From a virus: a DNA stretch of 30,936 bases. The notes beneath the pieces were generated by a model. The model had not been told where the DNA came from, did no database searches, and saw only the letters and a program-made list of their open reading frames with translations. The stretch covers positions 1 through 30,936 of IMG/VR virus record IMGVR_UViG_3300025101_000107. The stretch is one strand, 5' to 3'. How positions within the stretch are numbered: position 1 is the first letter of the stretch; each line of letters opens with the position of its first letter. Of the stretch, positions 11,878 through 28,583 are shown piece after piece. Made by a program: the position numbers and the translations under genes.

Positions 11878-12291
11878 TTAGCTAGAAACTTTGATTTTTT
11901 TTGGCTTTTGTTCCTCTGGTATGTCTTTTTCCAGTTGAATAACCAAGACACCATCAATCATCTGAGCTTTCTTTACTTCTACGTATTCAGCTAGAGCAAA
12001 TTTTTTATAGAACTCTCGTTCAGAAATTCCTTTATGAATAAATTCTATATCATCCTCTCTCTTTCCGTAGTCTGCAGAGATAGTTAATGTATTATCTTTT
12101 ACTTCAATATCAATGTCAGAACGTTTAAACCCTGCCATTGCCATTTCAATAAAATATGATTCACCTTTTTTAAGAATATTGTAAGGTGGATAGTTTGTAT
12201 TAGGTATTGATGCTCTTTGTAATGTATTAAAGATGTCATCAAACCCGACTGAGAACGGACTGAATTGTCCAAATGCTTTTATGTTTGTCAT
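11878..12291 (-). CDS. Small heat-shock protein, Hsp20/alpha-crystallin family
   Basis: A 137-residue chaperone of IbpA type. The alpha-crystallin domain runs from about residue 35 (PPYNILKKGESYFIEMAMAG) to 125, with the typical DIDIEVKDNTLTISA, the loop RGISEREF-like HKGISEREFYKKFAL, and DGVLVIQLEKDIPEE. It would hold unfolding proteins in the infected cytoplasm. Small Hsp20 genes are well known in marine cyanophages. It is the last gene of the - strand arm and has its own perfect promoter and a thermometer-like leader, separate from the overlapping genes upstream. ATG 12291 is set by AAGGAG at 12297-12302 on the - strand. Confidence 0.93.
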   Translation of the reverse strand: MTNIKAFGQFSPFSVGFDDIFNTLQRASIPNTNYPPYNILKKGESYFIEMAMAGFKRSDIDIEVKDNTLTISADYGKREDDIEFIHKGISEREFYKKFALAEYVEVKKAQMIDGVLVIQLEKDIPEEQKPKKIKVSS

Positions 12292-12382: not shown

Positions 12383-14116
12383 TCATATTGTATAAATTTT
12401 TATAGGTTTTTCTTTACCTTTAACACGGATAGAATCTAACTTTTGATACATAGTTCCATGATAATATTTAATTGTCTCTTCACCTATAACTAAATCTTTA
12501 CCTACTTCCTTACAGCTAGATTCTAAACGAGCTGCTAAGTTTACCGCATCACCTATAGCTGTATAATCAAAACGAGTATCACTTCCCATATTACCTATGA
12601 CAGCTTCACCCGTATTTACACCAATACCTATATCAATATCTAAATCTGATTCTTTCATTTTAGTTTTTATTTCTAACGCTGCTAATATAGCTTGATGTTC
12701 GTGTCTATCTAAATCCATAGGTGCATTAAATATAGCCATCATCGCATCACCAATATATTTATCTACCATTCCACCATACTTTTTAACTGCATCAGCTTGG
12801 ATAGTTAAAGCTTTGTTCATAATCTCTGTGACTTCTTCAGGCTCTAACTTCTCTGACAAACTTGTAAAGCCTCTAACATCTGTAAATAAAAATGTACATC
12901 GTCTTCTTTCACCACCTAACTTTAAAAGCTCTGGATTGTTTTGTAATCGTTTGACTTGAGCTGGGTCAAGATAATGCTCAAATTGTTTCTTAATTTGTTG
13001 ACGAAGTTTAAACTGTGTCCTAAAGTTTAGATAGAACTGTTGAGTTGCGATAAGTGTCATACTTATCAAACTCCAAGTTACATCAACTAAATAACCTAGA
13101 GATACAAAATAATAACCTAAACCAGCAACTGATGACATTACCATACCAGCTAAAAGTAATCCCCACGTTATACCAAAGTAACTTATAATAAAGGCGATTA
13201 GTAATCCGGAAATGCATAATATAAATAGTTCAACAAATAATCTGTAGTCAGGTATGGAAGGAGAGTCAATCAAAATACTTTCTGCAAGTGCAGCCTGTAT
13301 CTTATGAGGCTCTAACAATCCGTTTGGAGTTGCTAACTGTGGCATAACTCCTTTCGCAGTTACACCTATGAATACAAACTTACCTGCAACATCCATTTCT
13401 TTTAAGGTAGTTTGTGGTGTATCAACCCAACTAATCCATTTTCTCCCAAGACTATCTGTGCTTACCGGAGGTAATCCTTTGACTCTTATCATCTCAATAC
13501 CATTCTCGTTAGTCTTAATTTGATAAGTGTCACCACCTACTAATGACTTTAGTACTTGAGTACCAAAGGCAGCAACCCAACCATCTGGAGTTTGCTGTAG
13601 TAAAGGTAATCGTCTGACAAGATTATCTACATCAACTCTTGCCGACACTACTCCTTGAGCTGCTGATTGTTTTAGTATAGGTACATTTTCTAAAAACCCT
13701 GTAGCTTTTGGTAAGTCTACATCTGGTCCAAGGATAACAGTACCATGTGTTTCAGGATAAATATTATTCTCAAACTCTGGCATTGCTAGTACACTAGGAA
13801 CATAACTTAGCATCTGTGAAAAGATTTCATCTCCACCAAACCTATCTGGCTGTGGAAATAGAATAACCCAACCCACTCCTAATGCACCTTCGTTAATTAG
13901 TTGTCGTTGTATCTCTGCTAAGTCTTGTCTAGGAAAAGGATAGCCACCTCTTTCTTGTACGTCTTCTTCAGTAATATTTAAAATTGTAAAATGTCCGGAA
14001 GGCTCTGGAGTTTCTACAAACGTATCAAAAGTTTTAAGTCTAAGTATCTCTAAAGGTACAGAGTTAAAAAGTAAAGGTACAATTAAAAGTCCAAGTAAAG
14101 GTAAAGACCACTTCAT
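12383..14116 (-). CDS. CHASE2-domain class III adenylate cyclase
   Basis: A 577-residue membrane receptor-cyclase predicted to make cAMP from ATP. An N-terminal hydrophobic segment (residues 5-20) leads into a periplasmic CHASE2 domain (about 25-285) with VEITEED-like NITEEDVQERGGYPFPR and FVFIGVTAKG. Three membrane segments follow (about 293-312, 316-338, 343-358), then a coiled linker and the cyclase domain (about 400-577). Catalytic residues are complete: metal ligands D413 (FTDVRGF) and D457 (YIGDAMM), adenine-selecting K453 and T519 (DYTAIGD), and N526/R530 (VNLAAR). ATG 14116 follows AAGGAG overlapping the end of the FecR gene. In bacteria CHASE2 cyclases can lie beside FecR-domain genes, as here. 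It is full length with no broken motif. Confidence 0.93.
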   Translation of the reverse strand: MKWSLPLLGLLIVPLLFNSVPLEILRLKTFDTFVETPEPSGHFTILNITEEDVQERGGYPFPRQDLAEIQRQLINEGALGVGWVILFPQPDRFGGDEIFSQMLSYVPSVLAMPEFENNIYPETHGTVILGPDVDLPKATGFLENVPILKQSAAQGVVSARVDVDNLVRRLPLLQQTPDGWVAAFGTQVLKSLVGGDTYQIKTNENGIEMIRVKGLPPVSTDSLGRKWISWVDTPQTTLKEMDVAGKFVFIGVTAKGVMPQLATPNGLLEPHKIQAALAESILIDSPSIPDYRLFVELFILCISGLLIAFIISYFGITWGLLLAGMVMSSVAGLGYYFVSLGYLVDVTWSLISMTLIATQQFYLNFRTQFKLRQQIKKQFEHYLDPAQVKRLQNNPELLKLGGERRRCTFLFTDVRGFTSLSEKLEPEEVTEIMNKALTIQADAVKKYGGMVDKYIGDAMMAIFNAPMDLDRHEHQAILAALEIKTKMKESDLDIDIGIGVNTGEAVIGNMGSDTRFDYTAIGDAVNLAARLESSCKEVGKDLVIGEETIKYYHGTMYQKLDSIRVKGKEKPIKIYTI

Positions 14117-14117
14117 A

Positions 14118-15227
14118 TTAATCTCCTTGAGTTATCGTTATGGTAGAGCTTCCTCCACCATTCACCACAATCTGAGTGCTCTTACCATTCTGTATTAGTA
14201 TGACAGTATATGAGCCACTCTTATCTAAATCTAACCTAACAGTATCTTCTAACGTTTTGTAAAAAGTTATGAGATTATCTGTTGTAAAAGTATTGATTTG
14301 AGTTTCTTGGTCAAACCCAAATGCTGTACCTTTTAAATCTATATCTGTTTTTAATAGTGTATTAGTTGTATCTAATTCGTTTATATCTTCAATTATATTT
14401 AGTAGGTCTTCTAAAAAATTTACATCTAAATAATTTATATCTAGCTCTGTAAATTCTAATTCATCTCCTGCTAAATAGTCTTGTTCTAAATCGTCAAAAT
14501 CAAGATAATCAATATCAAGAACATTACTTGTACTACTATCTCCGTCTTGTCCTGTGGCAACTTTATTCTCCCTTGGTTTGCTTACAATCAACATGTTATC
14601 AATTAACTCAAGTGTTAAGTCAAGGATAACTGGCTTAGTGGGTTCAGCTTCAAATATAGAAACTGTAGTAGCTTGGTAAGGTTTATTAAGTACAACCTCT
14701 CCCATAGCTGTTGCAACGACAATCTCTCCACTAGGTAGACCGTCATCGTCAGGTAATAATATGACTAAAGAACGACCTAATTCGTCAACAGTCACAGTAA
14801 AATCAGTACCACGAATACCTATCGTAGCACTTGGAGTTTTTATAAATATGTTTTGTTTATCTATAGTTGCGAGTTTTCCTGTGATAAATCTTGCAGTACC
14901 ACTCGCAAACTGTAGAGCCATCTTAGATTTAGATGGGTCAGGGTCATATATAAACTCATCAATAATGAGTTCAGAATGTTCAGTCAATCTTACTTGACTA
15001 TCATCCAGAAACGTAATGCCCACTCTCCCATTGGAAGTTTGGACATTATCGTAACTGTTTATATCGAAGGCTAGTGCAGCTTTGTAAGTATCGTCTCTTA
15101 CAACTCTGCCAAAACCTTCAAGCTCTGTAATGCTGCCTATCTCAGCAACCGACTGCTGTTCCGCCATCGTTTTGGATGACACAAACAGTACCGTTAGAAC
15201 CAGTACTAAGTATTTTAAGCCAGTCAT
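14118..15227 (-). CDS. Periplasmic FecR-domain protein
   Basis: 369 residues with a signal peptide (hydrophobic 6-17, probable cleavage after TMA, residue 22). The FecR domain covers about 35-175: VGITFLDDSQVRLTEHSELIIDEF, then the signature TPSATIGIRGTDF (131-143). A second part is highly acidic and Leu/Asp-repetitive (about 225-290, for example LDIDYLDFDD, LDINYLDVNFLED). The end is beta-rich and Gly/Ser-rich (VVNGGGSSTITITQGD). There is no cytoplasmic anti-sigma helix, so this is a periplasmic structural or ligand-binding FecR, not a classical FecI regulator. It sits between a curlin gene and a CHASE2 cyclase; acting as the cyclase's periplasmic partner is inference. Its first 86 bases overlap the curlin gene. 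Confidence 0.88.
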   Translation of the reverse strand: MTGLKYLVLVLTVLFVSSKTMAEQQSVAEIGSITELEGFGRVVRDDTYKAALAFDINSYDNVQTSNGRVGITFLDDSQVRLTEHSELIIDEFIYDPDPSKSKMALQFASGTARFITGKLATIDKQNIFIKTPSATIGIRGTDFTVTVDELGRSLVILLPDDDGLPSGEIVVATAMGEVVLNKPYQATTVSIFEAEPTKPVILDLTLELIDNMLIVSKPRENKVATGQDGDSSTSNVLDIDYLDFDDLEQDYLAGDELEFTELDINYLDVNFLEDLLNIIEDINELDTTNTLLKTDIDLKGTAFGFDQETQINTFTTDNLITFYKTLEDTVRLDLDKSGSYTVILIQNGKSTQIVVNGGGSSTITITQGD

Positions 15228-15852
15228 TATCTAGTGTACTCTGTTGTTGTATGTTGAATGTTCTAGAACCTCCTGTCTGGTCTAAGTAAAAATAACCACC
15301 AGCATATCCTTGTCCATCAAAACTAACTGTATTACTATCACCATCAATATCTACATAACTTGTGCCACCATCATAATCTATATCAAAGTCTAGTTGGTTT
15401 CCTGAACCATTGATTATCCAATCAAGGTCAGTATTACTAGCCATTGAACTCGTTGCCAAGTCAAGTGTAAAGGTGTTAGTGCTTCCAGTAACATCAACAT
15501 TTAAATTAGAACTATCTGCTCCATAAGTATTTGTCGGGTCTACTTGAATTGTAAAGCTATTACTATCTCCATCAAACTCAAAGAAACCTGTCAAACTATC
15601 AGCTAGAATATCTCCTAAGAATTTATTAGTGTCACCAATTTGATTGATGTCTAATGTCATTCCTGTTCCGTCTAAGTCAAGAGGTGTTAATGTACCGGCT
15701 ACGGAATTTAAACCTCCAATAATATTAGCAGAACCGAGTTGCTCTAAATCAAGATTTGCTGTCGCACCAGATTGCTCAACATATATTTCATTATCTGCAG
15801 CATAAATACCTAAAGATATTATAGCTACTAAACTTAATATTATTTTATTCAT
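15142..15852 (-). CDS. Secreted curlin-repeat-like protein (candidate CsgG cargo)
   Basis: 236 residues with a clean signal peptide (MNKIILSLVAIISLGIYA, cut before ADN). The mature start has two good curlin-type units, NEIYVEQSGATANLDLEQLG and MTLDINQIGDTNKF, fitting the x-Q-x-G-x2-N pattern. Further N-rich beta units with Asp in place of Gln follow (FEFDGDSNSFTI, LNVDVTGSTNTFTL, YVDIDGDSNTVSF), then a GGYFYLDQTGGSRTFNIQQQ unit. The end CVIQNDGGTAVGC has a Cys pair. A stacked beta-solenoid like CsgA is likely, but the repeats are degenerate, so amyloid formation is not certain. It starts 8 bases inside the end of csgG, so coexpression is near certain. Confidence 0.8.
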   Translation of the reverse strand: MNKIILSLVAIISLGIYAADNEIYVEQSGATANLDLEQLGSANIIGGLNSVAGTLTPLDLDGTGMTLDINQIGDTNKFLGDILADSLTGFFEFDGDSNSFTIQVDPTNTYGADSSNLNVDVTGSTNTFTLDLATSSMASNTDLDWIINGSGNQLDFDIDYDGGTSYVDIDGDSNTVSFDGQGYAGGYFYLDQTGGSRTFNIQQQSTLDNDWLKILSTGSNGTVCVIQNDGGTAVGC

Positions 15853-16651
15853 ATTCCCAATAGCCTCTCTCTATTCCTATATTTATTATATTTAAAACTC
15901 CTGTCTCTATTGCCTTTTGTAAAGCTATAGATACAGATTCATTCTCAGCCACGCCTCCTTCTATTTCTACTAACTCTGTTTGTTGTTCAATAAAACGAAA
16001 AACATCCTGAGATATGCTTGTAGATAAAATACTTTTAGTCACTAAAGTTTCTATTAGTACTTCACCTGTGGATACTGAAACTAATCGCAATGATATAGTT
16101 ACATTATCTTCTCGGTATTGTTTACTGTTACCTATTCCTAAGTAACGAGCACCCAATCCTCCAGACCTTTGGTTCGCTTCATAAGAAACGACACCGCCCT
16201 GAACCAGTAGCCCTGCAAATAACAAGGGCTTTAATTTATTATCTTCTTCAAACTCTTTACGAGTTGTACGTATGAGTTGTCTTTCTTTGGTAAGGTCATC
16301 TAAACCTACACGTTCTACAACTCTAAAAAAGTTACCACCTGATGTATGCTTTAATGCTCTAATTAAAAACGCTTCAGGTGCTTGTGTTATTGCAGTACTA
16401 AATAAAGCAAACGAACTATTGCTTCTTCGTTGCCCTGTTAAATCTTTAAAACTATTAGGGTATATCGCTATTGTAGGCTGTACTTTTGCTGCCGGTAAGT
16501 TTAGTAATTCTTCTGATTGTAATGTTAGTGTTGTTGGAGCTTGTATCTTTTTTGTTAATACTAAATCATTATTCTGACTTATAACTGCACAACCACTAGA
16601 AAGTAAAACTACCAATAGGCAACTGAATAATCGTAACATTTCCATCTGCAT
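15845..16651 (-). CDS. csgG: Curli secretion channel lipoprotein CsgG
   Basis: 268 residues, very close to bacterial CsgG (277). A lipoprotein signal ends at C21 (LLSSGC; the -3 residue is Ser rather than the usual Leu). Conserved blocks are SFKDLTGQ (67-74), FFRVVERVGLDDLTKERQLIR (108-128), YEANQRSGGLGARYLGIG (157-174), ISLRLVSVSTGEVL (186-199), DVFRFIE (216-222) and AIETGVLNIINIGIERGYW (247-265). CsgG forms a nonameric outer-membrane pore that exports curlin subunits. ATG 16651 is the longest start; 16645 and 16639 are possible. It overlaps csgF by up to 56 bases. No CsgE, CsgB, CsgC or CsgD homologue is in the window. Confidence 0.95.
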   Translation of the reverse strand: MQMEMLRLFSCLLVVLLSSGCAVISQNNDLVLTKKIQAPTTLTLQSEELLNLPAAKVQPTIAIYPNSFKDLTGQRRSNSSFALFSTAITQAPEAFLIRALKHTSGGNFFRVVERVGLDDLTKERQLIRTTRKEFEEDNKLKPLLFAGLLVQGGVVSYEANQRSGGLGARYLGIGNSKQYREDNVTISLRLVSVSTGEVLIETLVTKSILSTSISQDVFRFIEQQTELVEIEGGVAENESVSIALQKAIETGVLNIINIGIERGYWEYE

Positions 16652-17105
16652 CCGTAATTGTAAGTGTTATTATTTCTCCATCGCTTATATAAGAAATGGT
16701 ATTTCCTTCAAGTTCTATAGTACCTTCTGTACTAGGGTTCTCCCCAAATAAATTTTCTACTAATTGCCTTGATAGTTGTGCGTAAATCCGTGACTCTAGA
16801 TTTCTAATAAATCTTGCGAGTGTTGTGTTTTCCTTGTCTCTTTTGATTTGCTCTTGTAAAGCTTTGATTTCTTCTTTGATTGTCATCTTACGATTAAACT
16901 CTTGGTTCTCAATAGTAAGATAATGAGAGCTAGTATTTTCTCCACTAAACGATGGGTTCTTAAACTTATGAACCATTTCATCTGCAAAAGCTATGTTAAT
17001 AAAAAACATAGACAAACCCATTAATCCTAGTACACAAACTTGTACTATCGAAGCAATAGTAATTTGTGTCATTGGATGTATATTTTCAATCTTTTCTTTG
17101 GTCAT
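16596..17105 (-). CDS. csgF: Curli assembly factor CsgF
   Basis: 169 residues from ATG 17105; a TTG 18 bases upstream is less likely, and ATG 17072 would give a shorter signal peptide. A hydrophobic signal (residues 14-40) ends at FA, and the mature start DEMVHKFKNPSFSGENTSS matches the CsgF N-terminus that plugs the CsgG pore (FRNPNFGG in E. coli). The middle (KEEIKALQEQIKRDKEN) is helical. The C-terminal block SRIYAQLSRQLVENLFG, ISYISDGEIITLTITD and TIIQLP matches the end of CsgF. It caps the extracellular side of CsgG and couples export to nucleation. The start overlaps the upstream gene by 20 bases and the end overlaps csgG, so all three form one operon with the lysis genes. Confidence 0.9.
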   Translation of the reverse strand: MTKEKIENIHPMTQITIASIVQVCVLGLMGLSMFFINIAFADEMVHKFKNPSFSGENTSSHYLTIENQEFNRKMTIKEEIKALQEQIKRDKENTTLARFIRNLESRIYAQLSRQLVENLFGENPSTEGTIELEGNTISYISDGEIITLTITDADGNVTIIQLPIGSFTF

Positions 17106-17436
17106 CTCTGTCTGCCTTTGCAATCTTATCTATCTCTACTAAGTTTGGTACGCCTAGTAAAGTTTTAAGTAGAACATCCTGTCTAATACTTTGATTATCC
17201 ATTGCTCTTACTCTATCAATTAAACTAACTATGATGCCATATTGACTGTCAAGTTTAGTGGTTACTCTCTCTTCCATTGTATCTAAACTTGCTTGTACCT
17301 TATCATCTAAAGTATCAAGTTTGGCTTCCATGCCATCTATAATTCTATTTATTAACTTCCATATAAACCATCCAAGTCCTAACGCTGCTGCGATTGGAAA
17401 ACCTACTTGGTTTATTACATTTATAAATTCGTCCAT
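17086..17436 (-). CDS. Single-pass membrane protein with coiled coil (116 aa), lysis region
   Basis: One N-terminal membrane segment (FPIAAALGLGWFIWKLI, residues 13-29) is followed by a long predicted coiled coil (GMEAKLDTLDDKVQASLDTM and on to residue 80), then a charged tail. Such N-in membrane-plus-coil proteins sit beside holin and lysozyme genes in many marine phages and may be a second holin, an antiholin or an inner-membrane spanin. A lipoprotein spanin partner is not seen. The start codon region overlaps the end of the holin-like gene by 1 base. Confidence 0.65.
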   Translation of the reverse strand: MDEFINVINQVGFPIAAALGLGWFIWKLINRIIDGMEAKLDTLDDKVQASLDTMEERVTTKLDSQYGIIVSLIDRVRAMDNQSIRQDVLLKTLLGVPNLVEIDKIAKADRDDQRKD

Positions 17437-17909
17437 TACTCTTTCGTAGAGTTAGAAGCTCCGAAGTAAAAACTAATTACTGCCGATGCTAGACCACCTA
17501 AATAACCTAACACTAAATTTATTAACGCTTCTGAGTTTTGTTCTGGTGGTTGTAGTGTTACTAAGAATATATATCCTAAGAATCCACCAACTGTAGCTAT
17601 ACCCATGATACGAGCTGTCCAATCTTTACTAAAGTTTTTTCTAGCATCTTGAGTGTCAGCTACTTCTAACTTGTAAACATCTACATCAAGCTCTTTCATC
17701 TGTACTTCAAAAGCTTGTTCAGCTTTCTTTAGCTCAAGCATCTGTTCAGGTGTAGCTTCTTGTACTGCTTTCTCTATAGCCTTTGGTGTATTAGGTACTC
17801 CCAATACATCAGCTATCATATTAGCTGCCATGCCTCCCATAGGTCCGCCTAATGCAGTTCCTAATGTAGGAGCAACAGCTCCAACTATATTTTTTAATAG
17901 TCCTTTCAT
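17436..17909 (-). CDS. Holin-like protein, GTA_holin_3TM type
   Basis: 157 residues. A hydrophobic Gly-rich N-terminus (GAVAPTLGTALGGPMGGMAA) precedes a charged helical section (EKAVQEATPEQMLELKKAEQ) and two strong membrane segments near the end (IMGIATVGGFLGYIFLVTL and INLVLGYLGGLASAVISFYF). The order and the GGPMGGMA plus tail pattern match the 3TM holin family of phages and gene transfer agents. It would permeabilise the inner membrane and release the adjacent lysozyme. It lies one base after the lysozyme gene. Confidence 0.75.
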   Translation of the reverse strand: MKGLLKNIVGAVAPTLGTALGGPMGGMAANMIADVLGVPNTPKAIEKAVQEATPEQMLELKKAEQAFEVQMKELDVDVYKLEVADTQDARKNFSKDWTARIMGIATVGGFLGYIFLVTLQPPEQNSEALINLVLGYLGGLASAVISFYFGASNSTKE

Positions 17910-17910
17910 T

Positions 17911-18360
17911 TCATACTCCTAGTACCATATCTTGTAATTCTTTACTACGTCTGCCCACTTGTCCGAACCATCTAGAGTCTTCCATTTGAACAGCCATTTC
18001 TTTCCAGTTATGTTCTCTACAAGCTTTTAACATGTTTCTAAATTTGGAAAGTCTGTTTGCACCTAAGTTAAAACACATATTAACTAAGACGTGTTGTATG
18101 TCTTCAGGTAAGTTATAAAAATCTTCATCACTTCCAAAGACGTGTCTAGCCTCTTCCAAGTGTTTATGAAAGTCATCTTCATAATACATGTCTACAACTT
18201 CTTGACTAATCGGTGTACCAACTTCTAAGTTATATTCAGGGTCTTGAGGCTGACATAAGTGTCCTATGCCTAAAGTTTTATATCCTAAACTATCTTCGTA
18301 AATTTCTAACACTTCTCCTTCGTGTCTTTTAATTTGTTCTTTACATAAATCTATATTCAT
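17911..18360 (-). CDS. T4-type lysozyme (GH24 endolysin)
   Basis: 149 residues. The catalytic triad has the T4 lysozyme spacing: E14 in RHEGEVLEIY, D23 in YEDSLGYKT and T29, followed by GIGHL (compare E11, D20 and T26 of T4). The second lobe carries LVNMCFNLGANRLSKFRNML and RWFGQVGRRSKELQDM. It cleaves the peptidoglycan glycan chain. There is no signal peptide or N-terminal membrane anchor, so release should depend on the holin. The start overlaps the stop of the large upstream gene by 4 bases. Confidence 0.95.
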   Translation of the reverse strand: MNIDLCKEQIKRHEGEVLEIYEDSLGYKTLGIGHLCQPQDPEYNLEVGTPISQEVVDMYYEDDFHKHLEEARHVFGSDEDFYNLPEDIQHVLVNMCFNLGANRLSKFRNMLKACREHNWKEMAVQMEDSRWFGQVGRRSKELQDMVLGV

Positions 18361-21300
18361 CCTAATAAATCCTCCATTTGGTCTCTGTATGTCAGTCCGC
18401 CTAACTCTGCACTTTCTCTGTCAGCAGGGTTTTCTTTTGTATTTGGTACTTTAAATTCTCCTTCAACTAAACCACCTGTAGAGTATCCTCTAGTAGAATC
18501 AATATAAACATCATCATCTATAGCTTCTTCTACAATAGGTACAACCTCTCTAGCGAATGGTAAGACTTCTGCTGTTTCTTTTGCTATACTTCCACCTGCT
18601 TCTCCAAGTGCTTCAAGTAAAGTATCTGCTTCAGAGTTTAATAATTTACCAACAGGCTTAGTACCAATCTCAGATAAATCTTGCATGTATCCTAAAACAG
18701 GTGCTACTTGTTCCATTGTATTGCTACCAAACGTATCAAATTTAATGAGTGACCTAATTTTTTCTACAATATAAGTATTCCAACCAGCAAAACTAATTCC
18801 TTCTCCTATTTTTTGAGGAATAGTTTCTTTAGCAACTTCTTCTTTATAATTTTTATTTGTCGAAAGTGCTATTTGAGTTTCTCTAACTCCCATAAATATA
18901 GGTATAGCAGCAGCCATACGTACAAATAATGCCCCATCTCCTTGTTCTACTCTAGCTATAAGAGCATTTGATTGAGATGTTTTAGCTTGTGCCCATGATA
19001 AAAAACTACCTAAGAATTTAACATAAGGATTTTTACTTTGAGCAAACAATCTTCTATTACCAATTTGAGGTATTAATGCATCTCTATCTGCAGCTTTCAA
19101 TCCTGCTTTTTTCAAATAAGATTTAGCAATAGGGTCAGCGATAGCTTTTTCTAAAGTATCAAATTGTCCAAGATATGTAAATTGTTTTTGCGATAATCCC
19201 ATGGCATCCATTTCTTTTTGTAAAGCTTCTTTAGTTTTTAAAAATTCTGAAGTTCTACCTTTCTTAACAGTTTGCCCAATGTCCATAGCTCTATGAACAC
19301 CAGAATCAAATGCCCAGTTTCTTGCTGTCCTAGTAACTCTACCTAGTTGAATTACTTCAAAATATTGTCTAGTAAAATCAGCTACTTTTCTTTGGTATCT
19401 TTTTACATTACCACCACCTACTAATAATACATCTGATAGTTCTCTTTCAAGTAAAGCATCGTGCCTATTGTTACCTACAAATTTATCAACAAAAGTAGCA
19501 TCTTTTCCAGCTACTTGTTTTTGAGTTCCCTTTAAACCTAATCCTTCTGTAGATAATTTTATTTCTGAGACTGCTCCTTTGTATGCAGCTTTATAGCCAC
19601 TATTTGTAATAGTCTGTAACAAGTCACCTAAACTTGGTATTGCTACTCTAGCTAATCTAGTTGTAGCTAACCCAGTTTGTAAAAATGTAACAATCGCTTG
19701 ACCAACATCTCCTGTAGGCATTTGGTCTACTTGATATACACCAAAGTAAGCTTCTAAAGAATCTTTAATTTTTTTCTTTTCTGCTTGTGCTCTAGCTCTC
19801 GCAGCCGGATTATTTAAATATAACTGCCTAGCATTTTTATATTGATTAGTTGGGTCAGCCATCAACTTAATTTCATCATCAATATCTTTAAAAAGTTTTT
19901 TTACTCCTTCTCCCTTTGCACCAAATCGTTTTACAAATTCTGCAACATTAACAGTATTACTAATTAGCTGACGTAAAGTTTCTGTAGGATTTTGTTCAAA
20001 TAAATGTGACACCGAAGCTCTTGCTTCTTGGTCATATAATGTTCTAGATTTATTAAAATGTCTAGCAGCATCTAAAACAAATTCTTCATCTCTTTGTTTC
20101 TTTAAACTATTAGCTTGAAAAATAGCATCGTCTGTTTCTTTTTTCCAAATAGAACGTGCTCTCAAACTTGTACTTGTTTGCAAATATTCTCCAGCTATAT
20201 CTTCAGCTCTTGCTCTAGCTGCAGCAATTTCCTTTTTACCTTTAGGTTTATAAAATTTATTTCCTACTTCTTTACTGTTTTGTATAAAAAAAGCATTTGC
20301 TAATTCTGATTTAACTTTATTATAATTAGCTGTATCAATAGCTTCTTGTTTTAATAGTTGAGTCAAACCATACTGAGCTTCATCATCAAAATTTAAACCT
20401 CGTGACACAGCATAGTTTCTAAAACTTAATGTAAACTCATCTACTTCTAAAGATAATTTTTGAGCTTGAGCAAGTTTTGGATTTGCTAAATCTTCATCTG
20501 TTAAAAAAGAATATTTTTTAGACTTTAAATTTCTATTATTGGAAAGTTTACCAGCTAATTCTAAAACATCATCATCATACTTACTAACTAAATTAGAATA
20601 CAAATCTCTCCAATATCCTGTTTGTAAAATAGCTTCTTCTTCTACACTTAGTTCTTTAGTACGAGAACCAAGCTGAACTCCACCACCTTGCATTTTAAAC
20701 ATTTTAGCTGCATAATTTACAACTGGTTTTGAGAATGACATAAGCTCTTGAACATGTGAACCGGCTGTCAGTCCTTTTAGATAGTTCCAATAAGAACGTC
20801 TATATTCTTTTACAAACTCGTTCCCCATTGCATCCTTAACTTTTTTAGATACTATTTCATAAGGTTTACTTTGGATAGTTTTTTGAAATTTACCATACGT
20901 TGCTCCGATTGCAGCAAAGTAAAGCATTTTAGCATTACCATCTCCTTCCTCTGTAAAGGTAGCTCCTATACCACCTCCAATAATACCACCTATAAGTGGT
21001 CTTACACTTTCTTGGATTATGCTTCGTGCAAAACTTTCAGTAAGTAATCCATTTTTTTGTCCGTTCAGTACACTTTTATTTATAACATCTAACAAATTAT
21101 CTGGTAATTCCTCAGTATAAATTTGTTTGAGTTCTTTATTAATTGCTCTTACTTCAGCAGTTAATTTACCTCTTTCTGTTTTAGCTTGGTTTGTAATAAA
21201 AGTAAAGTAATCATCTTCTTTTAATTCTTGTTTAGTTAAAACTTTTCTGTGTTGACTTTTAATTTTTTTAAGTTCGACAGAAATTTCTTTTCTTCTAACA

Positions 21301-22163
21301 CCTATTCTATCTAATCGTGTAGTAAGTGTACCAATATTTTTTAGTGCTTCATCACTATCAATGGTTACTTCTTTAATAAGTTTTTCAACTTTAGGCTGGT
21401 CTGTTTGCTTAATAATTTTAGGTTTGGTATCTCCTGAAATAGTTACAGGCTTACCGACTTTTTGTCCAGATGCATTAGTTACTTGTACAACTTCATTAAC
21501 AGGTTTACTTGCATATCTACTATATGCAGCCATTATCATATCACCTGCTTGAGCACCGGCAACACCTAATCCAAACCCTACTCCTACTGTATAAGGATTT
21601 ATTTCTCCGTATAAAGCTTCTTCTCTAAGAGCCATATCTCCTGCAGCAAATGAACCACCTGCACCTAGACTTGCAACTTTACCAAGCTTTGCAAATTTTG
21701 CCCATGGAATAATAAATGTAATAGGGTCAGCTAAAGCTACTGATGCTCTACCAGTTAATGTACCGGCTGTTTCTTTCCTACCTCTAAACTCTGAAAACTC
21801 TTCAAATATTTCTTCTTGTCGTTCATCTTCAATTCTTTTTCGTGCTTCTTCATAAGTTTCGTTACGATTAAATAATGAACCTAATCCAGCTTTAGCAATA
21901 CGATAAGCACTTCCTAATGCCATTGGTTCTTGAGCTTGACCAAAGGCTATTTCTCTTGCTAATGAAATTTCAGGCGTAGCAAAATATCCCAATGTTGATA
22001 TATCTTTAGGAGGTACTCTAGTTTCTTCTTGAGTCTCAATCGCTGGAGAAGAAAAATAACCTAAGTTTTGCACATTAGGTTCTATTACTAAAGGCGTAAC
22101 TACATTTTCATCAGGCTCTTGAGTTGAACTAAAATAACCAAGATTGTTATTATTAATTGTCAT
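18357..22163 (-). CDS. Large internal virion/DNA-ejection-type protein (1268 aa)
   Basis: The size, position between virion genes and lysis genes, and features point to a T7 gp16-like ejection protein, although no transglycosylase motif was seen. The N-terminus has three copies of LGYF(S/A)(S/T) within the first 75 residues. Gly-rich hydrophobic segments at about 195-208 (VGVGFGLGVAGAQAG) and 395 (LIGGIIGGGIGATF) could insert in membranes. The rest is long, charged and helical (for example EYLQTSTSLRARSIWKK, RARAQAEKKKIKDSLEAYFG). The end has a YSTGGLVEGEFKVPNTKENP segment, a pattern I recall from the C-termini of large internal proteins of marine podophages. It probably forms part of the channel that carries DNA across the envelope. 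Confidence 0.7.
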   Translation of the reverse strand: MTINNNNLGYFSSTQEPDENVVTPLVIEPNVQNLGYFSSPAIETQEETRVPPKDISTLGYFATPEISLAREIAFGQAQEPMALGSAYRIAKAGLGSLFNRNETYEEARKRIEDERQEEIFEEFSEFRGRKETAGTLTGRASVALADPITFIIPWAKFAKLGKVASLGAGGSFAAGDMALREEALYGEINPYTVGVGFGLGVAGAQAGDMIMAAYSRYASKPVNEVVQVTNASGQKVGKPVTISGDTKPKIIKQTDQPKVEKLIKEVTIDSDEALKNIGTLTTRLDRIGVRRKEISVELKKIKSQHRKVLTKQELKEDDYFTFITNQAKTERGKLTAEVRAINKELKQIYTEELPDNLLDVINKSVLNGQKNGLLTESFARSIIQESVRPLIGGIIGGGIGATFTEEGDGNAKMLYFAAIGATYGKFQKTIQSKPYEIVSKKVKDAMGNEFVKEYRRSYWNYLKGLTAGSHVQELMSFSKPVVNYAAKMFKMQGGGVQLGSRTKELSVEEEAILQTGYWRDLYSNLVSKYDDDVLELAGKLSNNRNLKSKKYSFLTDEDLANPKLAQAQKLSLEVDEFTLSFRNYAVSRGLNFDDEAQYGLTQLLKQEAIDTANYNKVKSELANAFFIQNSKEVGNKFYKPKGKKEIAAARARAEDIAGEYLQTSTSLRARSIWKKETDDAIFQANSLKKQRDEEFVLDAARHFNKSRTLYDQEARASVSHLFEQNPTETLRQLISNTVNVAEFVKRFGAKGEGVKKLFKDIDDEIKLMADPTNQYKNARQLYLNNPAARARAQAEKKKIKDSLEAYFGVYQVDQMPTGDVGQAIVTFLQTGLATTRLARVAIPSLGDLLQTITNSGYKAAYKGAVSEIKLSTEGLGLKGTQKQVAGKDATFVDKFVGNNRHDALLERELSDVLLVGGGNVKRYQRKVADFTRQYFEVIQLGRVTRTARNWAFDSGVHRAMDIGQTVKKGRTSEFLKTKEALQKEMDAMGLSQKQFTYLGQFDTLEKAIADPIAKSYLKKAGLKAADRDALIPQIGNRRLFAQSKNPYVKFLGSFLSWAQAKTSQSNALIARVEQGDGALFVRMAAAIPIFMGVRETQIALSTNKNYKEEVAKETIPQKIGEGISFAGWNTYIVEKIRSLIKFDTFGSNTMEQVAPVLGYMQDLSEIGTKPVGKLLNSEADTLLEALGEAGGSIAKETAEVLPFAREVVPIVEEAIDDDVYIDSTRGYSTGGLVEGEFKVPNTKENPADRESAELGGLTYRDQMEDLLG

Positions 22164-22177
22164 TAATATATCCTTGA

Positions 22178-24127
22178 TTAATTTTGATTGTCTACCATAC
22201 TTAACTGTTTATTTAATACATCTAAATATTCTTCAAATAAAGGTAGTCTTTCTTGTTTATCTAATTTATAAAAATCACTAGATTTTATATCTTTAGTGTC
22301 CTTCATCCACTTTCTAAATTCCGTTGAGTTTACGCTACCCATTCTACCAGCATTAATATTTTCTATAGCTCTATTAACTTGTTTAATTCGTCTATTAAGA
22401 ATTTGTTCAGGCTGCATTCCTAATAAAGATTTAACACCTTGTCTCATTTCTTTTCTAGCTTTATCATCTGTTCTTTCAAGTAACGCATTCATTTCCTCTT
22501 CATTTAATTCCGAAAATTGTTTTCGTTCTGTAGTCTGTTTTTCTTCTGGAACTTCTGAGTTATCTGGTAAATTTTTATTAGTTAAAATTTGTCTAATTTG
22601 TTCTTCATGTTCAGGATATAAATTAATATATGCATTAATTTCTCTTTCTTTTTCTACAGAAGATAAAGATGACCACTTTGTATCCATACCATCTTGAGCA
22701 TATAAATTCATTTTATTAGCATCAAACGCAGGAATACCATCATCTGAAACTTCAGGTGTTTTATCTTCTCCTTGAGTTTGATGAGTTGCTACCGCATCTG
22801 AAAGCTGTACTTTATTTTCAATTAAATTATTACCGTTTGTACTAGGTAATACTAAAAGAATATCTTCACCGTTCCATGTAATTTGCTCTGGTCCATCAAA
22901 AAATCCTTCACCTTTTCTTACATCTTTTAATCTTTGAAAACGACCTTCATTAGCCCATTGATTAAAAATAGAATGAATTGATTGAGCACCTATCAAAGCA
23001 TTAGAACCATTTTTTATTAACATTTCATTTTGTCTAAGTTGATGTACCGCTAATGCATCATATAACATTTCTGTGCTTAAAACTGAAACTTGTCCGTTTG
23101 CATCTAACACTTTAATATTTTGAAAATTACCTTCCTTAATATTAACAGTTTCCTTAACAGGATTACCATCTTCACCTATTTTATCTTTTCTAACAATAGG
23201 AATTTCTAAAGGTATATCAAAGAAAGCTTTATTAACTCTACCAGTATAACGACCAGATGAATTTCTTTCTTCTAAAATATCTTTATTTACTTTCTTTTGT
23301 TGACGTATTGTTTCTGCATCGTAAGGTTTTTGCGACATATTAATACTATCAAATTCTAAATCTCCAGCATCTCCACCTATTGAGCCAGAATAAAAGTCTT
23401 CTAAACGTCTAGTTGCTGCTTGTACAGAAAGTTGTTGATTATCATAATCTTCCACAGCTAATTCAATAGCTCTATCCATTCTTATTTTTTCAGCGTTATT
23501 ACCAGTATAGTTTCCATCTTTATCAAATTTAAATAAATTATTCCACTCTTCTCTAATAACTCCTCTTTTTGTAGGGTCATTCTTAGCTAATTCATCTTTT
23601 GCTAAAAAAGCTCTCCTACCAGCTTCGGTATAACCTTGCACCGTTCTAAATTTAACTCTTGGGTCTTGTCTTAAAATTTCAATTTCTTGTTTGCCTCTAT
23701 CTCTTTGTGAATTAAATTCATCTTGTAATGAATCTCTTACATCTTTAGGTAACTGCATTCTATTTTCCCAAGTAATGCCTCTTGCTATAGCATCATCTGA
23801 GTATGTCATGTTTTGTGATGCATATTTATTTAAATAAGCAGATTCACCCATTCTATTATATTCATCTACTCTAGCTCTTTCATCTGCAAAATCTGCCCAT
23901 TCACTTGAGTCCTTACTAAAAATTATATCAGATTCTGTTTTTAATCTATCTCTTGCATCTAATCTTTCTTCTTGTTGAAAGGCAGTTAAGTTACTTAAAA
24001 AGTCTTTTAAAAATCCAGCACCAAAAGCGATAGCCATATTTTTTTTGTAGTCATCATCTTTTTTAGCCAATAGAGCACCAGCAACCTGTCCAAACGGGCT
24101 GTTCGTCATATAATCTTTCATTGCCAT
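22178..24127 (-). CDS. Probable internal virion protein (649 aa)
   Basis: A mostly helical, charged protein with no recognised catalytic motif. The N-terminus (MAMKDYMTNSPFGQVAGALL, then NMAIAFGAGFLKDFLSNLTAF) has a moderately hydrophobic stretch; the rest is rich in Arg, Asp and Gln (QQEERLDARDRLKTESD, REEWNNLFKFDKDGNYTG). By position between a structural protein and the ejection-type protein it resembles T7 gp15. The start codon overlaps the preceding stop (TAATG), a join also used by its neighbours, so this block is one translationally coupled unit. Confidence 0.6.
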   Translation of the reverse strand: MAMKDYMTNSPFGQVAGALLAKKDDDYKKNMAIAFGAGFLKDFLSNLTAFQQEERLDARDRLKTESDIIFSKDSSEWADFADERARVDEYNRMGESAYLNKYASQNMTYSDDAIARGITWENRMQLPKDVRDSLQDEFNSQRDRGKQEIEILRQDPRVKFRTVQGYTEAGRRAFLAKDELAKNDPTKRGVIREEWNNLFKFDKDGNYTGNNAEKIRMDRAIELAVEDYDNQQLSVQAATRRLEDFYSGSIGGDAGDLEFDSINMSQKPYDAETIRQQKKVNKDILEERNSSGRYTGRVNKAFFDIPLEIPIVRKDKIGEDGNPVKETVNIKEGNFQNIKVLDANGQVSVLSTEMLYDALAVHQLRQNEMLIKNGSNALIGAQSIHSIFNQWANEGRFQRLKDVRKGEGFFDGPEQITWNGEDILLVLPSTNGNNLIENKVQLSDAVATHQTQGEDKTPEVSDDGIPAFDANKMNLYAQDGMDTKWSSLSSVEKEREINAYINLYPEHEEQIRQILTNKNLPDNSEVPEEKQTTERKQFSELNEEEMNALLERTDDKARKEMRQGVKSLLGMQPEQILNRRIKQVNRAIENINAGRMGSVNSTEFRKWMKDTKDIKSSDFYKLDKQERLPLFEEYLDVLNKQLSMVDNQN

Positions 24128-24873
24128 TATGCTTCTCCTCTACTTAATATACTTCTTATTTGTTGTATTTCTGGACCTTTTTCTTTAACTTTGTCTAATA
24201 TATCTGAAGGTACTGTACCATTATTAATGTTTTGAGGAGATATATTTTTTTCTATAGCTCCTTGTTTAACATCAGTAAAAGCATTTCTAAATTGATTTAA
24301 TTTTTCTTCGTTCTCTTCTAAATCATCTTCATCATCAAACTCATCTAAATCATTACCTTCAATATTATATTTAATATTTGCTTCTTCACCAATAGCCATC
24401 ATAATATACATAACGGGTTCTACTAATAGTAGCATGACATCAGGATTTATATCTCCTGTTGAAAACTTAGAATATAAAACTGCAATAGATAAATCTGCAA
24501 CTGCTGCACCATTTGCTAGTGCTGATACAATATTTTGAACAGCTTCAGGTTGTAATAGTTCAGTAACAATTACATTCAAAGCTTCTCTAGGGTTTGCAAA
24601 CTTTGCAGGTTTTTCCCATGGGTAAGCTTGGTCAGGGTCATTCATTAAAGACTGTCCCGGAATCGGTGCTCCTTCATTAGAAAGATTAACAAGTTCATCC
24701 ATTCCTTCTTGACTAAACTTTGCTTCACCTCTTAATTTTTGCCCTATATCAGGAGCAAGTTCATCAATACTATATCCTGCATCTAAAGCATCTAAAACAA
24801 TATCTCTTGAAGCTTCACTTACACTATTAGAAATAATAGGTTTAGCACCTCTTCGTTTTTGTACTTCTGCCAT
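24127..24873 (-). CDS. Phage virion-associated protein (248 aa)
   Basis: The segment PIPGQSLMNDPDQAYPWEKP followed by EALNVIVTELLQPEAVQNIV is a pattern I recall from a protein widespread in marine tailed phages, usually annotated only as structural or hypothetical. It has a moderately hydrophobic central helix (VMLLLVEPVMYIMMAIGEE) and a very acidic stretch (NDLDEFDDEDDLEENEEK). Both ends use TAATG joins with neighbours. Function unknown; virion location is inferred from context. Confidence 0.6.
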   Translation of the reverse strand: MAEVQKRRGAKPIISNSVSEASRDIVLDALDAGYSIDELAPDIGQKLRGEAKFSQEGMDELVNLSNEGAPIPGQSLMNDPDQAYPWEKPAKFANPREALNVIVTELLQPEAVQNIVSALANGAAVADLSIAVLYSKFSTGDINPDVMLLLVEPVMYIMMAIGEEANIKYNIEGNDLDEFDDEDDLEENEEKLNQFRNAFTDVKQGAIEKNISPQNINNGTVPSDILDKVKEKGPEIQQIRSILSRGEA

Positions 24874-25739
24874 TATGCTGGTACTCCTACAGTATCTTGT
24901 CTATATAAATCTGAATTAATTTGATAAGCTGGGTCAGCAGTTCCATAAGTTAATTGACCATAAATATCATCTAAATTAATATTATTGTTTTCTGCAAACA
25001 CTTGTAGCTTGTCTTGATATTCTTTACTTTCGTTAGCTAGTCCAGCCATTTGACCTGATGGGTCTCCTTCCATTAGTTTTGCTTGAGCAGCACCGCTAAC
25101 AACACCGCCAACTACACCAGCACCCGTTCTAACTGCAAGGTCTCCCCATTTATTACCAAAGAAATATTTTTCAGTTGCAGCTTCTCCAGCAACTTCTGTT
25201 ACAGGAGCTGTTACACCACCTACTGCAGCACCACTAAACGGAGCTGAAGCAGCTTGTCCTGTTCCTGCAACAATTTCTCCACCTTGAGAAACTAAAGGAT
25301 TACCATAAGCAGATACTTGTCCCGGACCAGCTTGAAATGCAGGTTGACCAGTTAATAAGTTAGCACCTACTCTAGCAGTACTTCCTAATGCACCACCAAT
25401 AGCACCAAAAGGTTTTGAAACAGTTTTAATTGCAACGTTTCCTATTTTAGCTAATGTACCAGTTCCACCAAATACAGTACCACCTAACATCTTACCACTT
25501 GCATTCATCATAAATGCTCCTAGTTTACTTGTGGCAAGTGCCCCTGTTCCACCAAACGCTGTAAGAGCTGCACCTCCCGTCACCACGACTGCAGCAGCTA
25601 TAGCTAGGGCTTTTAATATTTTACTTGAGCCTATTTTCTTAACAACTTTTTTAACACCTTTAACAACTTTCTTAACGACTTTCTTTACGCCCTTAACAAC
25701 TTTCTTAAAAGCTTTTTTAATTTTACTAAATAATCCCAT
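24873..25739 (-). CDS. Lys-rich amphipathic, Gly/Ala-rich virion-associated protein (288 aa)
   Basis: The first 37 residues are a near-periodic cationic helix built from KKVVKG and KKVVKK units (about 16 Lys), followed by a hydrophobic segment (ILKALAIAAAVVVTGGAALTAF, about 40-62) and a long Gly/Ala-rich region with repeated GG motifs. This layout looks like a membrane-active or DNA-binding head followed by a membrane-spanning part. It sits in the block of internal-virion-type genes, so a role in genome ejection is plausible. At DNA level the Lys repeat gives imperfect tandem copies around 25640-25720. No family with known function is recognised. Confidence 0.6.
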   Translation of the reverse strand: MGLFSKIKKAFKKVVKGVKKVVKKVVKGVKKVVKKIGSSKILKALAIAAAVVVTGGAALTAFGGTGALATSKLGAFMMNASGKMLGGTVFGGTGTLAKIGNVAIKTVSKPFGAIGGALGSTARVGANLLTGQPAFQAGPGQVSAYGNPLVSQGGEIVAGTGQAASAPFSGAAVGGVTAPVTEVAGEAATEKYFFGNKWGDLAVRTGAGVVGGVVSGAAQAKLMEGDPSGQMAGLANESKEYQDKLQVFAENNNINLDDIYGQLTYGTADPAYQINSDLYRQDTVGVPA

Positions 25740-25751
25740 AATGTTTCTCCG

Positions 25752-28583
25752 TTATCCGAATAGGTCTCCTGTTATTGCTCCAATTAAATCTTGTATATTT
25801 TTCAAACTACCACCATACTTCGATGGGTCTGAAGCTAGTGCAGTATTTACAATTTGTGCTATTCTATTCTTTTCGTTTTCACCTTCTCTAAAATCATAAT
25901 CAGCTTGGTCTCTCATTTCTTGCCATAAGAATGACATAGAAGTTTGTGACAAGTTAAATGCATTCTGTGCATTCTGCATATTAATAGCATTCTGTGCAGC
26001 AGTATTAGCAGCATTAGTTTTACGTCTCCACTCTACATTAGATTGTTCAACGATAGCTTCGTTCTGTGCATTCCATTGATTCCTTGCAAAGTCTTGGTTC
26101 GCATTAAACTGGTCTACCTGAGTTGCAAGTTGAGTATTAAACTTCTCAACATCTGCAGCTCTTTGAGCATCTCTTGCAGCAGCAGCATTTGTTTGCGTAT
26201 CATTAAACTGCCTCATTGCATTTGTTTGGTTTGTATTGTACTGACTCATTTGTGCAGCCATACTAGCCATAAACTGATTAGTTTGATTTTCACTAGCAGC
26301 ATTAAATTGCTTAGAAGCATTTGTTGCAGCTTGGTCAGACAACAATCTTTGTTGCTCTTGTTGAGCTTTCATCATGTTTGCTTGTTGTCTATTATTAAGA
26401 TTAGCCATATCCATTGCTAAAAAGTTCTGAGCATTTTGTACAGCTAGTCTTTCTCTTGTTCCTAAGTTTGCTAAATCCATTGAAGCCATTGCAGTTGCAT
26501 TTTGCATGATAGCTTGTTGTTCAGCATTCATGTCTGCAATCGCTACAGTCTGCATAAATTTACTATTAGCTAATTCAACTTGTTGAGCAGCATTAAACTT
26601 AGTCATATCCATGTTTGCTTTTGTAGTAGCATTCTGGATAGCTGATTGTTGGTCAACATTAAGTTGAGCCAAATTCATTTGACTAGCTATCTGTGCTTGA
26701 AGCTGATTCGTTTGCATAGTCTTATTAAGATTTGCAAGTTCTATCTTTTCTGCATTACTTAAATTTTCACTAGCAGCTAAATTACGTGAAGATAAATTAG
26801 CTAATCGCATCTGTTGTTCGTTACTTAAATTAGCAACTTCCATCTGCTGTTTAAACGCAGCATTCTTAGAAAGGAAGTCAGCAGCAATTTGCATTTCTGC
26901 CATCTTCTCTTGATTCTCTGCAGTTTGGTTTGCACCTTCAACATTAGCTTCTATCTGAAGCTCTGCCATCTCAACTTGTTGCTCATTGCCAAGATTTTGC
27001 ATACGCATCTGTTGCTCATTCTGTGATTGAATAACAGCAGCTTGTTGTTGATTCTGTAGGTTCTGTGTTCTTGTTTGTTGTTGTTGGTCAGCAGTAGTCA
27101 TTACAGCTTGTTGGTCAAACTGACTCTGCATAACTTTCATTTGCTGTGCCATTTGAGCTGTTTGGCTTTCAGCACTTTGACGATTAGCTAAGTTAGCCAT
27201 TCGTAATTGTTGCTCTTGTTGAGCTTCTTGTAAGTTAGCTTGTTGCTCGTTACTTAAATTTTGAGCTGCTCTTGTTTGTAAAGCTTGTGCATTACTTTGA
27301 GCCATAGGTAAAGCACTTTGAATAATAGCATTAAATAAAGCATCTCTTCCTACACTAGAAACATCTAAACCTCTTTGAGCCATTCTTTGATTAACAGCAT
27401 CAACAGCAGGTTTTGCCCATAGTGGTACTTCACCATCTTCCATACCACCTAAAAGTGTATCCATTTGTGAAGATACTAAAGCTTCTGTAGGTAAAGCAGC
27501 AACTGCAGCTTGTACTTCTACTGGCTCGTTATCTATTTGAGCTTCTACTGTTGCAGGGTCTTGAACAATAGCAGCAGATATTTCTGGAGGTAAATTACCA
27601 GTAGCTGCAATCATATCAGCAGCAGCACCTTGAGCAGCAGTACCTTTTACAGCTCTTTGTTTTGCAGCTTCATATCCAACAGTATCATTAATAGCAGCAG
27701 CGACTGCATCTGGAGCAGGTTCTCCAAGAAGAGTTTCACGTTCTTGTCTTTCAGCATCAGGAGTTTGATTAACTGTAGTATCTTCTCCCTCAACTTCATC
27801 AACTAAATATGTACCTGTAAGAATATCATCTACAGTTTTAGCTTTAGCTGCTTCAGCTTTAACTTCATCAACACTAGCAAATTTAACTGGTGCTGTAATT
27901 GTTCCTTGTATGTCTCCTATTGGACCTCTCGTAACTGTACCTTGTGCAGCATCAACTGCTACATCTTTATCAGCTACTGTCGCTGCATCATAACCTGCAG
28001 CTTTTAAATCTTGACCGATTGTTTCATCAGCTTGTGCAGCTTGTGAAGTGGCTACTGCTTCTTTAGGTTGGTTTTTAGCTTGAAATGTTTGTGCCTTTGT
28101 AGGCTCTGCCATAGTAGTTGTCTTCTGCTTAATATTCTCATCAATCTTTTGAGCATCAGGTATTTTAGCAGCATCAGGCACTATCCCTTGCATTCCTTCT
28201 TCAACTCTAGTTCTAGTGGCTTGTTTCTGCTCTACCGTTTCTCCAGCAGCTTGAGCTTCTGCAGCTTCTTGAGCAGCTTTTTCTGCAGCTAATCTTGCAG
28301 CTTCCTCTAATGCAGCTTGTCTAGCCGCTTCCTCTGCAGCTAACCTAGCAGCTCTTTCTTCTGCAGTTTCTCCAGTATAGGTATTATTATTTCCTGCACC
28401 TCTTCCTCTACCTCTACCTCTATCTTCATAGTAATCTTCACCATAGTCCTGAAAACCTGCAGTTATTCCTCCGACATCAAAACCGACACGACCACCCTTA
28501 CGATAATCTTGTCTTTCGCTAATAGCTCTTACTCTCTTACCAGAAGAGTATTTGTTTCGTTTTGTTTTTTGTTTTTTAGCCAT
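25752..28583 (-). CDS. Large virion-type protein with 41 hendecad repeats (943 aa)
   Basis: The basic N-terminus has DYRKGGRVGFDVGGI, a KGGRVG motif I recall from marine phage structural proteins, then an Arg-Gly tract (DRGRGRGRGAG) and an Ala/Glu coiled coil (ERAARLAAEEAARQAALEEA). A low-complexity Ala/Thr/Val-rich linker follows to about 430. Residues 435-885 are 41 unbroken 11-residue repeats of type EQQ-h-x-h-A-N-L-x-N. The last 58 residues are a compact domain (ALASDPSKYGGSLKNIQDLI). Such hendecads favour long right-handed or straight helical bundles, so this is probably a rod or trans-envelope fibre in the virion. ATG 28583 is the first start; the Shine-Dalgarno is weak. Confidence 0.7.
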   Translation of the reverse strand: MAKKQKTKRNKYSSGKRVRAISERQDYRKGGRVGFDVGGITAGFQDYGEDYYEDRGRGRGRGAGNNNTYTGETAEERAARLAAEEAARQAALEEAARLAAEKAAQEAAEAQAAGETVEQKQATRTRVEEGMQGIVPDAAKIPDAQKIDENIKQKTTTMAEPTKAQTFQAKNQPKEAVATSQAAQADETIGQDLKAAGYDAATVADKDVAVDAAQGTVTRGPIGDIQGTITAPVKFASVDEVKAEAAKAKTVDDILTGTYLVDEVEGEDTTVNQTPDAERQERETLLGEPAPDAVAAAINDTVGYEAAKQRAVKGTAAQGAAADMIAATGNLPPEISAAIVQDPATVEAQIDNEPVEVQAAVAALPTEALVSSQMDTLLGGMEDGEVPLWAKPAVDAVNQRMAQRGLDVSSVGRDALFNAIIQSALPMAQSNAQALQTRAAQNLSNEQQANLQEAQQEQQLRMANLANRQSAESQTAQMAQQMKVMQSQFDQQAVMTTADQQQQTRTQNLQNQQQAAVIQSQNEQQMRMQNLGNEQQVEMAELQIEANVEGANQTAENQEKMAEMQIAADFLSKNAAFKQQMEVANLSNEQQMRLANLSSRNLAASENLSNAEKIELANLNKTMQTNQLQAQIASQMNLAQLNVDQQSAIQNATTKANMDMTKFNAAQQVELANSKFMQTVAIADMNAEQQAIMQNATAMASMDLANLGTRERLAVQNAQNFLAMDMANLNNRQQANMMKAQQEQQRLLSDQAATNASKQFNAASENQTNQFMASMAAQMSQYNTNQTNAMRQFNDTQTNAAAARDAQRAADVEKFNTQLATQVDQFNANQDFARNQWNAQNEAIVEQSNVEWRRKTNAANTAAQNAINMQNAQNAFNLSQTSMSFLWQEMRDQADYDFREGENEKNRIAQIVNTALASDPSKYGGSLKNIQDLIGAITGDLFG
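25929..27281 (-). repeat. 41 tandem 33-base coding units (11-residue hendecads)
   Basis: The 943-aa protein can be cut into 41 consecutive 11-mers without insertion or deletion, for example EQQLRMANLAN, EQQMRMQNLGN, KQQMEVANLSN, EQQMRLANLSS, DQQSAIQNATT and EQQAIMQNATA. The DNA copies have diverged, so the period is clear in protein but only partial in bases. Early units are Gln-rich, later ones carry Phe/Tyr/Trp (ATQVDQFNANQ, DFARNQWNAQN). The strict phase implies selection on helix geometry. Confidence 0.85.

Follow-up and report, generated by a model that had tools for sequence, protein, structure and literature searches.

Introduction

Pelagiphage T8SS (curli) clusters were described by Wittmers et al. 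(2022; PMC9599517). Nine podophages, and also pelagimyophages, were found to carry CsgF, CsgG, curlin and FecR, often together with an adenylate cyclase. According to that study, such clusters are widespread in the ocean, expression of both FecR and the curli proteins is seen in Pacific metatranscriptomes, the host is without curli, and a histidine kinase gene precedes CsgF; CHASE2 is not named. Curli genes are also discussed in two further papers that do not use the word cyclase (PMC7029224, PMC9004378). The role of phage curli clusters is unsettled.

A CHASE2-cyclase together with FecR, curlin, CsgG and CsgF is also present in two myophages, Pelagibacter phage HTVC008M and Methylophilales phage Melnitz, where the gene at the curlin position is annotated as CsgB-like or as a curlin repeat. 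Another gene separates FecR from the cyclase in these phages, which is a second curlin-repeat gene in Melnitz and a hypothetical gene in HTVC008M. The Melnitz paper gives the phage as lacking csgA/B, yet its record MZ577097 (L003, 6107-8901) annotates two curlin-repeat proteins along with FecR and the cyclase.

Two bacterial systems resemble parts of this arrangement. The CHASE2 adenylate/guanylate receptor cyclases CyaD1, CyaD2 and CyaK of Sinorhizobium meliloti raise cAMP on sensing a protein through the outer-membrane barrel NsrA, which the signal needs (PMC13001267). In the Burkholderia BiofilmReg operon, which serves biofilm control, a periplasmic FecR-domain protein lies beside a CHASE2 receptor, as in the locus described here, but the output of that receptor is a histidine kinase and not a cyclase (PMC5192318).

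Results

Gene context of the cyclase

The window is the whole stretch of viral DNA that was analyzed, 30,936 nucleotides of IMG/VR record IMGVR_UViG_3300025101_000107, for which a near-identical 53 kb contig exists. The features of the cyclase region are as follows:

11878..12291, minus strand: Hsp20 small heat-shock protein (Pfam HSP20, 66.8 bits)
12383..14116, minus strand: CHASE2, transmembrane and class III (IIIb-type) adenylate cyclase protein (AC), 577 aa (Pfam, catalytic residues, model and fold match)
14118..15227, minus strand: FecR-domain protein, periplasmic, with signal peptide; neighbor of AC (Pfam FecR, 43.2 bits; phrog_37870)
15142..15852, minus strand: curlin-like (CsgA/B-type) repeat protein with signal peptide (repeats in the sequence; position as in HTVC008M and Melnitz)
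15845..16651, minus strand: CsgG, outer-membrane curli secretion pore, lipoprotein (Pfam CsgG, 166.7 bits; 46% identical to HTVC008M CsgG)
16596..17123, minus strand: CsgF, curli assembly factor (Pfam CsgF, 73.8 bits)
17911..18360, minus strand: phage lysozyme, upstream in the same-strand run into the curli genes (Pfam Phage_lysozyme, 37.7 bits)

The minus-strand order is therefore lysozyme, two small membrane-looking proteins, CsgF, CsgG, the curlin-like repeat protein, FecR, AC and Hsp20, while the plus strand carries a primase-helicase, a family A DNA polymerase, an exonuclease, NrdA (assigned by sequence and position) and NrdB. The first part of the FecR gene, signal peptide included, shares 86 nt (15142-15227) with the 3′ end of the curlin gene, in a different frame; in the related locus L008 the stop-to-stop frames of the two genes overlap equally, by 86 nt. 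The ATG of AC lies 2 nt past the FecR stop and is preceded by a GGAG Shine-Dalgarno-like sequence. Farther upstream, at 18357-28583, five minus-strand ORFs (1268, 649, 248, 288 and 943 aa) are without a convincing Pfam or PHROG match.

The order CsgF-CsgG-curlin-FecR-AC is that of the clusters of Wittmers et al. (PMC9599517), here in a likely podophage that has Pelagibacter phages as relatives. The curlin gene was recognized by its repeat pattern and position, as Pfam curlin was not matched even at E 1. The window differs from the published clusters in having neither a second curlin gene nor a recognizable histidine kinase: the two genes before CsgF (17086-17436 and 17436-17909) gave no histidine kinase match at E 1, and their products resemble small membrane proteins or holins. 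AC is a gene of an already published phage cluster, and the view from the sequence-only reading that making cAMP at the membrane is unusual for phages has to be given up, as relatives of AC are encoded in at least 595 candidate IMG/VR stretches, are annotated in cultured pelagiphages, and were published in 2022. What is new here is the FecR-CHASE2 pairing, the inverted block found in six relatives, and the gap in cyclases and cAMP receptors in SAR11.

Domains and active site of AC

Pfam assigned residues 10-305 of AC to CHASE2 (PF05226; 95 bits, cut-off 26.3) and residues 406-575 to Guanylate_cyc (PF00211; 74.9 bits, cut-off 21.9). Hydrophobic stretches were found at residues 7-25, 293-311 and 320-338, with a weak fourth segment near 343-363, so that CHASE2 is flanked by N-terminal and C-terminal transmembrane segments in the layout of CHASE2 receptors. 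This bears out the initial assignment of a CHASE2 domain and membrane segments over a cyclase domain.

The six catalytic residues picked out by the sequence-only reading (D413, K453, D457, T519, N526 and R530) are correctly placed; they line up with the active-site residues of class III cyclases of solved structure, and none was misassigned. AC has the two metal-binding aspartates (D413 and D457), the transition-state asparagine (N526) and the arginine (R530) of class III nucleotidyl cyclases. The base-selecting position is a lysine, as in the chimera 6fht, and a glutamate in the guanylyl cyclase Cya2 (2w01). At the second base-selecting position T519, the same residue as in Pseudomonas aeruginosa CyaB, stands in the place of aspartate; such a Thr/Ser site is what we take to be the mark of class IIIb. 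From K453 and T519, the predicted substrate of AC is ATP, and AC is probably an active enzyme specific for it.

The AlphaFold2 model of AC had a mean pLDDT of 88. Its catalytic domain matched CyaC of Spirulina platensis (1wc1) with a Z of 25.7 and 1.6 Å over 176 residues, and the fold matches to CyaC and CyaB had Z values of about 25. The closest solved relatives (P. aeruginosa CyaB, Cya2, which is annotated as a guanylyl cyclase, and S. platensis CyaC) are all class III. When the CHASE2 domain was folded alone and searched against the PDB, the best match was no better than E 0.08, a result that is not evidence of a new fold.

Conservation and selection

Some 80 related viral loci retain the catalytic residues. 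Of 84 aligned sequences, all 84 had D413 and K453, 83 had D457 and R530 (one gap each) and 82 had N526; position 519 was Thr in 47 and Ser in 35, or one of the two in 82/84. The dN/dS of AC, determined by the Nei-Gojobori method for sequence pairs that had diverged enough to measure, was 0.08-0.19, which indicates purifying selection and therefore a gene that is kept for function. The claim that the phage encodes a complete class III cyclase is confirmed by these results, as the gene is intact and under selection, far beyond chance.

The annotated homologs in HTVC008M (AGE60353) and Melnitz (QZI94833) are 35% and 32% identical to AC, respectively, over 96% of the protein. In the cyclase tree all of the phage cyclases cluster together, and because they lie on long branches the tree does not resolve a bacterial donor. 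Two of eight tblastn matches in the phage collection, both labeled Acinetobacter phage MD-2021a (L004, which is CAKLQF020000009.1, and H7), were set aside; the L004 stretch carries mfd, hscAB and iscA and is bacterial chromosome by its gene content, despite its label. Another sequence, L089, is labeled Frankia and has a cyclase almost identical to that of Bradyrhizobium, and is probably a case of contamination or mislabeling.

Pairing of FecR with CHASE2

FecR adjoins AC in 77 of 80 viral loci, which are all of those with enough flanking sequence; the remaining three are cut off at the gene. Among the bacterial relatives of AC (Bradyrhizobium, Thalassospira and others), 12 of 36 same-strand upstream ORFs encode FecR and 10 of 36 encode HlyD of type I secretion, the latter also suggesting a link to surface secretion.

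The pairing is also found with other outputs. Besides the Burkholderia operon, where FecR accompanies a CHASE2 histidine kinase, a SAR11-family chromosome (L179:61-3483) encodes a signal-peptide FecR protein and, 54 nt after it, a CHASE2 protein whose C-terminal part is a SpoIIE phosphatase. In a second SAR11-family genome (L182:3969-9987), the CHASE2 protein is of this type too, and after it come a barrel-like protein and then one in which a FecR segment is evident, the last two as read from their sequences only. CHASE2 proteins off phage contigs occurred in 7 of 60 SAR11-family genomes. The FecR-CHASE2 input recurs and the output varies; with SpoIIE phosphatase as the output of the SAR11 loci, the output is therefore swappable. 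Judging from gene neighborhood, AC would be the output arm of such a pair, in putative contact with FecR through CHASE2.

FecR proteins may suggest sigma regulation of the FecI/FecR type, in which the N-terminus of FecR is a cytoplasmic anti-sigma part and an ECF sigma factor is encoded alongside. The phage FecR, however, begins with its signal peptide, and no domain lies N-terminal to that peptide; a Pfam scan of 20 window proteins found no sigma-factor domain. Because the pair recurs with varied outputs, the anti-sigma part is lacking and the scan showed no sigma factor, the phage FecR is better read as a partner of CHASE2 than as an iron regulator.

An inverted cyclase block in relatives

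In six close relatives (L008-L012 and L050), AC lies downstream of nrdAB and runs in the nrdAB direction, opposite to FecR. The inverted gene still adjoins FecR wherever the contig extends that far, and Hsp20 is inverted along with it where detected. Co-expression with FecR is therefore not obligatory, and the cyclase can evidently sit in a different transcription unit; as part of the nrdAB unit it is perhaps expressed earlier in infection. The six inverted loci share one clade with one non-inverted locus, which is most simply accounted for by one old inversion, followed by a single reversal should the non-inverted locus be nested. An invertible switch for the AC-Hsp20 block was considered and rejected: exact inverted repeats in the window are just 10-12 nt, none of them brackets the whole block, and no sign of site-specific inversion was seen.

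Host and cAMP receptors

The DNA polymerase is nearest to those of Pelagibacter podophages HTVC115P, HTVC103P and HTVC104P (51-54% identity), and the contig is likely a pelagiphage of podovirus type with a SAR11 host. Two SAR11-family genome bins hold contigs with the order CsgF-CsgG-curlin-FecR-AC, which weakly supports this host, as bins can contain stray contigs. SAR11 genomes were picked by the 16S probe SAR11-441R, giving 60 genomes of that family, some of them incomplete. Three further probes, which like SAR11-441R we take to be SAR11 probes, had exact matches in both genomes.

Class III cyclases were found in 2 of the 60 SAR11-family genomes, both on phage contigs, and a search for this class found no chromosomal one in the 60. 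The cNMP_binding domain was found in 2 of the 60, compared to 43 of 58 genomes in an even sample across the Alphaproteobacteria, and one of these two was the only genome with HTH_Crp_2 over the cut-off. HTVC008M, Melnitz and eleven podophage contigs were likewise searched without finding a cNMP_binding domain, and literature searches for SAR11 receptors of cAMP yielded nothing useful among their matches. The S. meliloti CHASE2 cyclases act via the CRP-family protein Clr, whereas SAR11 genomes appear to be without this type of receptor.

Because the likely SAR11 hosts have no cyclase of this class and almost no cNMP-binding protein, and none was found in the phage records, the target of the cAMP is probably not CRP. 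Cyclic AMP binders of other folds exist, such as PII-like and universal stress proteins, which a cNMP_binding search would miss. The target may be an unrecognized host or phage receptor, or a host protein of the PII-like or universal stress type.

Discussion

In the reading that we prefer, and to which we assign a probability of roughly 60%, AC is a working class IIIb-type cyclase that makes cAMP at the inner membrane while its CHASE2 domain reads the state of the curli via FecR. AC would sit in the inner membrane with CHASE2 toward the periplasm, where the domain would read the state of the phage curli pore and fiber through its secreted neighbor FecR. When the signal is present, the dimerized cytoplasmic domains would convert ATP to cAMP. 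What FecR and CHASE2 sense is likely an envelope state created by the curli; the ligand of CHASE2 is a guess because no solved relative of the domain was found. The S. meliloti CHASE2 cyclases are a working parallel for this type of sensing.

Other uses of the gene have to be weighed against this. AC might feed the CRP/catabolite network of the host, either resetting metabolism or turning on curli genes in the CRP-cAMP style of Gammaproteobacteria. Cyclic AMP works in this way in E. coli, and a CsgD route is offered by analogy by Wittmers et al. (PMC9599517), but the scarcity of cNMP_binding and of the CRP-type helix-turn-helix in SAR11-family genomes, and their absence from the phage records in the case of cNMP_binding, make this unlikely. 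The same near absence of receptors, with no chromosomal class III cyclase found in the 60 genomes, speaks against the earlier suggestion that phage cAMP resets host catabolite programs. The accompanying suggestion of an effect on surface programs stands in a different form, in that the phage brings its own surface machinery, the curli, with AC inside it. The absence of recognized receptors from host and phage would instead suit a cAMP that acts without a receptor in the cell, being exported, for example as a signal to neighboring cells, or changing nucleotide pools as a local drain or a source of pyrophosphate at the membrane. The joining of AC to nrdAB, a nucleotide-metabolism unit, in the six relatives also fits; we nevertheless consider this doubtful, as the strongly conserved receptor-type CHASE2 points to regulated signaling.

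AC might also act in phage-phage or phage-host conflict and produce cCMP or cUMP in the manner of Pycsar, as PADLOC PycC models match its cyclase domain at E 1e-30. These models share the class III fold, however, and match the catalytic domain only, the base-selecting residues are of the adenylate cyclase type, and no Pycsar effector was found next to AC among the four neighbors scanned, so that this role is very improbable. Equally far-fetched is an inactive relic that travels as a passenger with the curli genes. The lack of a known receptor in host and phage would be expected of such a relic, but the invariant catalytic residues and a dN/dS under 0.2 would not.

Under the preferred reading of AC as a curli-state sensor that makes cAMP, FecR and CHASE2 may form the input of a phage-specific second-messenger circuit, which would read the curli of the phage during infection and act through an undescribed receptor in a host that has no class III cyclase and essentially no CRP-type receptor. 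We put this forward tentatively, at short of even odds. With cAMP receptors nearly absent from SAR11, the loose notion of host reprogramming becomes a sharp question, namely who binds the cAMP. If FecR and the cyclase are viewed as one sensory pair, and not as an iron regulator plus an independent enzyme, a testable hypothesis follows about what the phage curli cluster reports.
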